Positions 23,076 through 53,415 of a stretch of 64,000 nucleotides of DNA are shown one piece after another. The notes beneath the pieces were generated by a model. That model made no database searches. It was given only the letters and a program-made list of their open reading frames with translations, and had not been told where the DNA came from. Source of the DNA: Candidatus Oscillochloris fontis. GTDB lineage: Bacteria; Chloroflexota; Chloroflexia; Chloroflexales; Chloroflexaceae. Position 1 is the first letter of the stretch; each line of letters opens with the position of its first letter. The position numbers and the translations under genes are program-made. Where the stretch lies: the NCBI RefSeq assembly GCF_004138135.1, contig NZ_RYFD01000001.1, forward strand, positions 1 to 64,000, given 5' to 3'.

Positions 23076-23083
23076 AGCCGCAC

Positions 23084-23233
23084 AGGGCATGTGCAAAGTC
23101 ACCTCCGGTGGGGGTTCGGGGGCGGCTTCGCCGCCCCCGAAGATCTTTTTTGTTGTTTTTTGGCGGCTTCGCCGCCAAAAAACAACAAAAATTGGGGTTT
23201 GGGGCGCAGCCCCAATGACTTTGCACATGCCCT
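23084..23233. mobile_element. TIR-17 MITE, 150-bp copy
   Basis: Perfect 17-bp terminal inverted repeats AGGGCATGTGCAAAGTC / GACTTTGCACATGCCCT. The interior is a nest of hairpins (GGCGGC-TTC-GCCGCC types with A and T tracts). It has no coding capacity. Flanks GTAGAGCCGCAC and GTAGAGACGCAA form an imperfect 12-bp direct repeat (10 of 12). The copy near 53.3 kb has a perfect 11-bp flanking repeat. Confidence 0.8.
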
Positions 23234-23253
23234 GTAGAGACGCAAAATCCGTC

Positions 23254-23282
23254 TTGACACCCCCGAAAAAACTCGTTATAGT
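23254..23282 (+). promoter_or_regulatory. Consensus promoter of a 14-codon mini-gene
   Basis: TTGACA, 17-bp spacer, TATAGT: the best sigma-70 match in the window. Transcription should begin near 23290, about 45 nt before the mini-gene start. Confidence 0.75.
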
Positions 23283-23336
23283 ACCTATGTCGGCACATTC
23301 AACACATGCCATACAGGCACGAAGGAGGTGATGCCC

Positions 23337-23381
23337 ATGAATAGTAAGCGTATGGGTGTCACCGCTGGTGAGGCTCATTAA
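23337..23381 (+). CDS. 14-residue mini-gene (leader peptide candidate)
   Basis: Reads MNSKRMGVTAGEAH then TAA. A near-perfect Shine-Dalgarno (AAGGAGGTG) lies 8 nt before the ATG and a consensus promoter further upstream; both are stronger than for most genes here. The second half of the frame forms the 5' arm of a 16-bp hairpin with sequence after the stop (23355-23370 with 23389-23404). Ribosome movement on the frame would therefore decide whether the hairpin forms. A 30-bp perfect palindrome follows. No peptide family is recognised. It could be a regulatory leader, a tiny functional peptide, or an RNA whose SD has another use. Confidence 0.5.
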   Translation: MNSKRMGVTAGEAH

Positions 23382-23404
23382 GATCCGCCACCAACGGTGA
23401 CGCC
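23355..23404 (+). promoter_or_regulatory. Hairpin spanning the mini-gene stop codon
   Basis: Arms GGTGTCACCGCTGGTG and CACCAACGGTGACGCC pair over 16 positions with one mismatch and one G-U, around an 18-nt loop holding the TAA. The 5' arm is coding sequence. Confidence 0.6.
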
Positions 23405-23416
23405 CGATCCCTTCTC

Positions 23417-23446
23417 AAAGGCTCCTGCCATATGGCAGGAGCCTTT
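23417..23446. terminator. 30-bp perfect palindrome, probable terminator
   Basis: AAAGGCTCCTGCCAT followed immediately by its exact complement, giving a 15-bp stem ending in a short CCTTT. It lies after the mini-gene hairpin; its last two bases are the first bases of the next promoter's -35. Lack of a long T-run makes it a weak intrinsic terminator; it could also be a protein-binding site. Confidence 0.5.
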
Positions 23447-23474
23447 GACATGCCTGCATTGGCTGCGGTACTAT
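23445..23474 (+). promoter_or_regulatory. Promoter of the YbjN gene
   Basis: TTGACA, 18-bp spacer, TACTAT. The -35 starts inside the end of the 30-bp palindrome, so binding at the palindrome could block it. Confidence 0.65.
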
Positions 23475-23551
23475 GGGCATATGATGGAATGTGGCACACG
23501 CCACGCACCAATCTCGACATCCTGCGTCAACGCTATGCAAAGGAGCTGGCG

Positions 23552-24975: not shown

Positions 24976-24989
24976 GTAGGGATGACGGA

Positions 24990-25032
24990 AGATCTTCGGG
25001 GGCGGCAAAACCGCCCCCGAAGATCTTTTTTT
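24990..25032 (+). terminator. Intrinsic terminator after the dehydratase gene
   Basis: Perfect 16-bp stem AGATCTTCGGGGGCGG with loop CAAAA, then seven T. The stem sequence also occurs in the interior of the 150-bp MITE and near 33.35 kb, so it is a shared hairpin module. Confidence 0.9.
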
Positions 25033-53344: not shown

Positions 53345-53415
53345 AGGGCATGTGCAAAGTCACCTCCGGTGGGGGTGCGGGGGCGGCTGCGCCCCAAGGA
53401 CTTTGCACATGCCCT
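53345..53415. mobile_element. TIR-17 MITE, 71-bp copy with 11-bp flanking repeat
   Basis: AGGGCATGTGCAAAGTC at the left and its perfect complement at the right, CACCTCCGGTGGGGGTGCGG inside. The flanks are GTATACCTTCT on both sides (one extra T on the left), a perfect 11-bp direct repeat that looks like a target-site duplication. IS4-group transposases make duplications of about this size. It lies directly upstream of the RecQ-like gene and contributes to its promoter region. Confidence 0.85.

Follow-up and report, generated by a model that had tools for sequence, protein, structure and literature searches.

Organization of the locus

We analysed a stretch of 64,000 nucleotides from Candidatus Oscillochloris fontis (contig NZ_RYFD01000001.1, positions 1 to 64,000), hereafter the window. 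As judged from its sequence signals, the segment from 23254 to 23474 is a self-contained transcription unit, with a gene of about 150 bases that specifies an RNA of about 150 nt. In order, it carries a consensus promoter, a small 5' hairpin, an extended Shine-Dalgarno (SD) sequence, a 14-codon open reading frame (ORF), a hairpin whose loop holds the stop codon, and a palindrome that resembles an intrinsic terminator (Table 1). The promoter matches the consensus at 11 of 12 positions. The small 5' hairpin (P0) corresponds to a motif, CCRnnYAGG, that is kept just 5' of the SD in alignments of both Chloroflexia and Cyanobacteria, its pairing being read from the sequence only. A 172-nt RNA from the locus folds at -83.7 kcal/mol (z = -6.5).

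A previous sequence-only reading of this segment had described the promoter, the SD, the ATG frame, the hairpin, the palindrome and the second promoter, and we found each of them where it had been placed; the palindrome, however, is 34 bp long and not 30. The same reading had assigned the second half of the ORF to the 5' arm of a hairpin. This is correct for the pairing beyond the stop codon, but the pairing of the SD and start region had been missed.

Table 1. Features of the minigene and its 3' flank in the window.
Feature	Position	Strand	Details and basis
Promoter of the minigene, sigma-70 type, TTGACA-17-TATAGT	23254-23282	+	TTGACA 23254-23259, 17 nt, TATAGT 23277-23282
P0, small 5' hairpin TGCC-ATACA-GGCA	23307-23319	+	Sequence and alignments
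Extended SD, AAGGAGGTGATGCCC	23322-23336	+	Nearly invariant in alignments
Arm A, GGTGATGCCC, part of the extended SD	23327-23336	+	Nearly invariant in alignments
14-codon ORF, MNSKRMGVTAGEAH-stop	23337-23381	+	ATG 23337, TAA 23379-23381; length changes preserve the frame
Hairpin spanning the stop codon	23354-23370 / 23389-23405	+	Sequence
Arm B, GGGTGTCACC, inside the ORF; partner A or C	23354-23363	+	Comparative pairing
Arm C, GGTGACGCCC, a near repeat of arm A, 3' of the stop codon	23396-23405	+	Comparative pairing
34-bp palindrome, probable intrinsic terminator	23415-23448	+	Sequence; short U run in this genome
Second promoter, TTGACA-18-TACTAT	23445-23474	+	TTGACA 23445-23450, 18 nt, TACTAT 23469-23474

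The minigene is widespread in Chloroflexia and present in Cyanobacteria

By plain DNA similarity, 31 genomes out of 41 carry the element; the genome of the window is counted among them, and a few weaker matches may be partial. A covariance model built from 33 copies (R1) found it in 136 of 158 Chloroflexia genomes (89 of the 93 best ones), normally as one copy each, and also gave matches in several Chloroflexota families outside Chloroflexia. Together with the folding score, this recurrence bears out the earlier view that such a layout is not expected by chance. A pattern scan gave matches in Oscillochloris, Chloroflexus, Chloroploca, Viridilinea, Roseiflexus, Kouleothrix, Herpetosiphonaceae, Chloroheliaceae, Thermomicrobiales and Ardenticatenaceae, as well as one match in a cyanobacterial MAG (M5B4), where it is intergenic and adjoins a gene that reads as rplI. 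Among the listed pattern matches from outside Chloroflexota, all but the cyanobacterial L195 were rejected as resembling ordinary coding sequence or as lacking the layout. Searching with the exact pattern, we found no virus-borne copies.

In a pattern search of 194 cyanobacterial genomes, the 18-mer AAGGAGGTGATGCCCATG was found exactly, and once each, in about 38 of them; its reversed control had no match in the same set. R2, a sequence model of the 5' half that Chloroflexota and Cyanobacteria have in common, identified homologues in 69 of the 194 cyanobacterial genomes, every one of at least 2.5 Mb. This model, which does find Cyanobacteria and Chloroflexota, found none in 246 Actinomycetota and no genuine copy in 249 Bacillota; the single Bacillota match (L254) was rejected because it reads like the beginning of a normal protein-coding gene. 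Since nearly all Chloroflexia genomes have the gene, in one copy, as do most of the larger cyanobacteria, it is old and evidently important.

A mobile repeat was considered and rejected, one copy per genome being the rule. In the genome of the window, the sole second DNA match is the palindrome itself, on the other strand. Two full copies at separate places were seen in genomes G033 (L021, L028) and G031 (L030, L031), and in the Thermomicrobiales genome SJ248 two convergent minigene copies, each with its own ORF, lie within 120 bp (L152, 5813-5932).

The minigene has its own promoter and terminator signals and no conserved downstream gene

We counted features in 104 unique copies, all from Chloroflexota except loci L213 and L214. 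A promoter-like match lies 5' of 88 of them. By a strict rule, 70 have a terminator-like hairpin followed by a T run 3' of arm C, against 4.7 expected in shuffles. The window copy fails the T-run part of this rule; in most of the other copies listed, that one included, the hairpin is there with a shorter T run.

No gene family is widely conserved downstream, and thus there is no conserved co-directional gene: by simple ORF calling at 65 loci, the first downstream gene lies on the + strand in 30 and on the opposite strand in 35. In the window, the element is followed by a YbjN gene (PF10722; probable start ATG 23552, SD AAGGAG 23540-23545) and a dehydratase gene (PF13452/PF01575). Among the genus genomes examined, this arrangement is confined to the window genome, and the five other members of the genus that were examined have different genes downstream. 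The second promoter is most likely that of the YbjN gene and lies outside the conserved element; in relatives, other genes occupy this position.

In leader-peptide attenuators of the trp and erm type, a short ORF is translated, one arm of a set of mutually exclusive hairpins lies within it, and a terminator comes next. The minigene has the same layout, and it could be taken for a leader-peptide or translational attenuator of the downstream gene, here YbjN. However, the minigene stands alone: the genes that follow it are not conserved and lie equally often on the opposite strand, and YbjN has its own promoter-like site past the terminator. An attenuator is therefore highly improbable and close to refuted. 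The sequence-only reading had suggested a regulator of the YbjN-dehydratase operon; we rejected this proposal on the basis of synteny and of the separate promoter and terminator signals.

The conserved neighbour is on the upstream side, where a motif test detected a LysM lipoprotein gene (PF01476) at 29 of 70 loci. Because the element has its own promoter, we interpret this link as ancestral synteny and not as an operon. Many copies are close to contig ends. An rRNA neighbourhood was rejected, as only one of 11 loci scanned with Rfam (L072, family f3) adjoins a 23S gene.

The reading frame is conserved, the peptide only in part

The distance from the ATG to arm B is 17, 20, 23 or 26, with a few other values, and its phase is the same in 93 of the 104 copies. 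The stop codon lies 15 nt past B in 67 of the 104 and 18 nt past B in 19. The three phases of the distance from the stop codon to arm C are used without preference (29/42/33). In the 37 unique cyanobacterial copies, which all have a strong SD, the ATG-B phase is this same one throughout. As far as sequence comparison can tell, the reading frame is under selection: the ATG-to-B segment changes length by whole codons, whereas the distance after the stop codon does not. The ORF has 14-16 codons in Chloroflexota and 22-24 in Cyanobacteria (23 amino acids in 33 unique copies, 24 in three and 22 in one, M5B4). Two of the first 33 copies (L013 and L016) have CAG in place of the TAG stop with the hairpin arms kept, and their ORFs continue into or through arm C, to 21 and 24 codons.

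Several observations would fit a micropeptide gene (N-terminally Ser-rich/Lys-Arg, motif SKRMG) in which the hairpins only tune expression. The frame is conserved, and the N-terminal codons AGT-AGT-AAA/AAG-CGT-ATG-GG (SSKRMG or similar) are common to both phyla. Moreover, third positions are the most variable in the five codons from B to the stop, although the codon-position signal is weak (mean entropy 1.0, 1.4 and 1.6 bits at positions 1, 2 and 3). In Cyanobacteria the peptide is highly conserved, and its translation is predicted (PMC4734099). In Chloroflexota, however, the peptide is only loosely conserved, with many positions that change freely, and arm B dictates G-[IV]-[TA], the conserved part in its middle. 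Peptides from distant families (MDVSCKSRAASVRSR, MADSSSKRMAAASLLGSR) differ strongly, within a similar RNA layout. We hold a micropeptide gene to be unlikely, though not negligibly so.

Arm B has two alternative partners

Two hairpins (ALTERNATIVES) are borne out by the comparison. The B:C pairing displays 28 double-changed cells in 33 sequences, a value reached in none of 500 shuffles (0/500), and slid controls were far lower. In the 90 canonical copies, 123 of the 166 changes in arm C pair with the copy's own B, changes from C-G to G-C included, and no more than 32 could do so with the consensus B.

The A:B pairing, in which arm A lies between the SD and the start codon, is complete (10/10) in all of the first 33 loci. 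Arm A being nearly invariant, A:B cannot covary and has no double changes of its own. At positions 1-9 of arm B, every change retains pairing with the near-fixed A, the exceptions falling at position 10. These alignments are consistent with selection on A:B too, the main evidence being the B/C asymmetry, which is weakened by transition bias and coding constraint.

When folded, the A:B segment of the window forms a stem of 13 bp in which the start codon is included. Computed energies are about -20 kcal/mol for A:B, -32 for B:C and -21 for the SD with the 16S tail; the cyanobacterial B:C duplex ranges from -15 to -29 kcal/mol. Because C is transcribed last, A:B is the fold predicted on nascent RNA. 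Partition functions favoured A:B in 89 of 90 nascent RNAs, nascent folding being here an equilibrium computation on truncated sequences and not a kinetic one, and B:C in 70 of 90 full-length RNAs; the full-length fold still prefers A:B in 19 of the 90 copies.

All together, frame and hairpin are both kept in relatives, where their loss would have spoken against the sequence-only reading. Of the possibilities that it had raised, a tiny functional peptide and a structured small RNA both gain support: frame, hairpin and terminator are conserved, and the hairpin shows compensatory changes.

Arm B resembles the 16S tail, and CCTCC lies inside it in some Chloroflexota outside the class. In three such loci (L110, L104 and L107), arm B contains a literal anti-SD (CCCTCCTC) able to pair with the SD GAGGAGG. 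It could thus be argued that the minigene encodes a trans-acting base-pairing small RNA, the ORF merely controlling the exposure of A, B and C, and the anti-SD-like B, or C, pairing with other mRNAs. The dominance of RNA-level constraints and the stand-alone unit with its terminator would agree with this. However, both partners of B are in cis and B is mostly paired, while the conservation of the frame shows that translation matters. We consider such a role decidedly unlikely.

In hok mRNA, the translation start is masked by a nascent hairpin until transcription has progressed. The aapA1 type I toxin mRNA likewise has a metastable nascent hairpin that conceals the translation start until transcription has moved further on (PMC6733600), and the start-hiding nascent hairpin and refolding predicted here resemble it. 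The minigene peptide and its relatives, however, are short and hydrophilic by inspection, with no membrane helix, and thus do not have the character of a hydrophobic membrane toxin; moreover, the gene is near-universal and mostly single-copy in the class. We therefore did not file it as a toxin, and a type I toxin-like mRNA appears improbable in the extreme.

Relationship to known small RNAs

The covariance models of Rfam 15 gave no match at the gathering score, and only chance-level matches below it. The literature searched yielded no description of a counterpart in Chloroflexota or of the two-fold switch. In Cyanobacteria, ncl0160 was first found in Synechocystis 6803 and is a transcribed small RNA of Synechocystis 6803 and Nostoc 7120 (Mitschke 2011, as cited in PMC4734099). 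By the account in PMC4734099, it is recognised in 83 cyanobacterial genomes, has a conserved SD and probably encodes a peptide of 23-25 amino acids; the search excluded the marine Prochlorococcus/Synechococcus lineage.

The cyanobacterial form of the minigene is very probably ncl0160, given its peptide length, SD and distribution. Both are small and widespread, with an SD and an ORF of similar length (23-25 amino acids in that account, 22-24 in the copies found here); ncl0160 is wide outside the marine Prochlorococcus/Synechococcus lineage, and the homologues found here are in 69 of 194 genomes, all of at least 2.5 Mb. In contrast, the Chloroflexota copies are shorter (14-16 amino acids, about 150 nt), and the alternative A:B and B:C pairing is absent from the main text of PMC4734099. 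The Chloroflexota family is in neither Rfam nor the literature that we found.

By its sequence, the minigene has the attributes of a dual-function small RNA, namely a stand-alone unit with promoter and terminator signals and an ORF under selection. Spot 42/SpfP is a short RNA of this kind: it has a promoter and a terminator of its own and encodes a small peptide as well. The minigene has the same likeness to SR1/SR1P of Bacillus subtilis (PMC7430163). It differs from both in that its ORF holds one arm of the regulatory hairpin and in that the family spans two phyla.

A proposed model: translation gated by refolding

Judged by comparative sequence, the gene has a promoter, an SD, a selected frame, the B:C pairing and a terminator, and its arm B is constrained in a manner consistent with A:B. 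The explanation that we favour, with moderate confidence, is that the gene stands alone and encodes a translated (dual-function) small RNA from an old family of Chloroflexota and Cyanobacteria, and that refolding gates its translation. On the nascent RNA, A:B would form first and hide the start codon. Once C is made, B would shift to C and the start region would open, so that most translation would start once the RNA is complete. A 30S subunit could then capture A through its 16S tail, which B would mimic. The ribosome would strip B, stop between B and C, and let A:B or B:C re-form; the RNA fold would therefore track ribosome occupancy.

Because no conserved gene lies downstream, the effect would be exerted in trans, through the RNA and/or the small peptide. 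We lean towards the RNA as the carrier of function, since constraints at the RNA level are the dominant ones and since the layout is kept between families whose peptides diverge. More speculatively, and in our estimation doubtful, the minigene might be an ancient RNA device with its own 16S-tail mimic (arm B), which would sense free 30S subunits, or translation capacity, through competition for the SD, and relay this in trans.

A gene that is mostly single-copy in nearly all of a class and common to two phyla is rarely dispensable. This one lies outside Rfam and, having so short an ORF, would be missed by ordinary gene callers; it also connects Chloroflexota with an uncharacterised RNA of Cyanobacteria. 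Its reading frame would be one component of an RNA switch that has no gene in cis. Moreover, the structural hypothesis is a defined one (three arms, two folds, one ORF), testable by point mutation in genetically tractable cyanobacteria.

Repeats elsewhere in the window

Between the LysM gene and the minigene, positions 23082-23235 hold a MITE-like insert with 20-nt perfect terminal inverted repeats (ACAGGGCATGTGCAAAGTCA) that enclose two GC-rich hairpins. A 13-mer from this repeat is found again at 53349-53411, as an inverted pair, and at 1311-1323, as a single copy. A long hairpin at 24987-25029 (GGAAGATCTTCGGGGGCGG...CCGCCCCCGAAGATCTTTT) resembles the hairpin at 23115-23146; a terminator-like repeat of this kind may recur in the genome.
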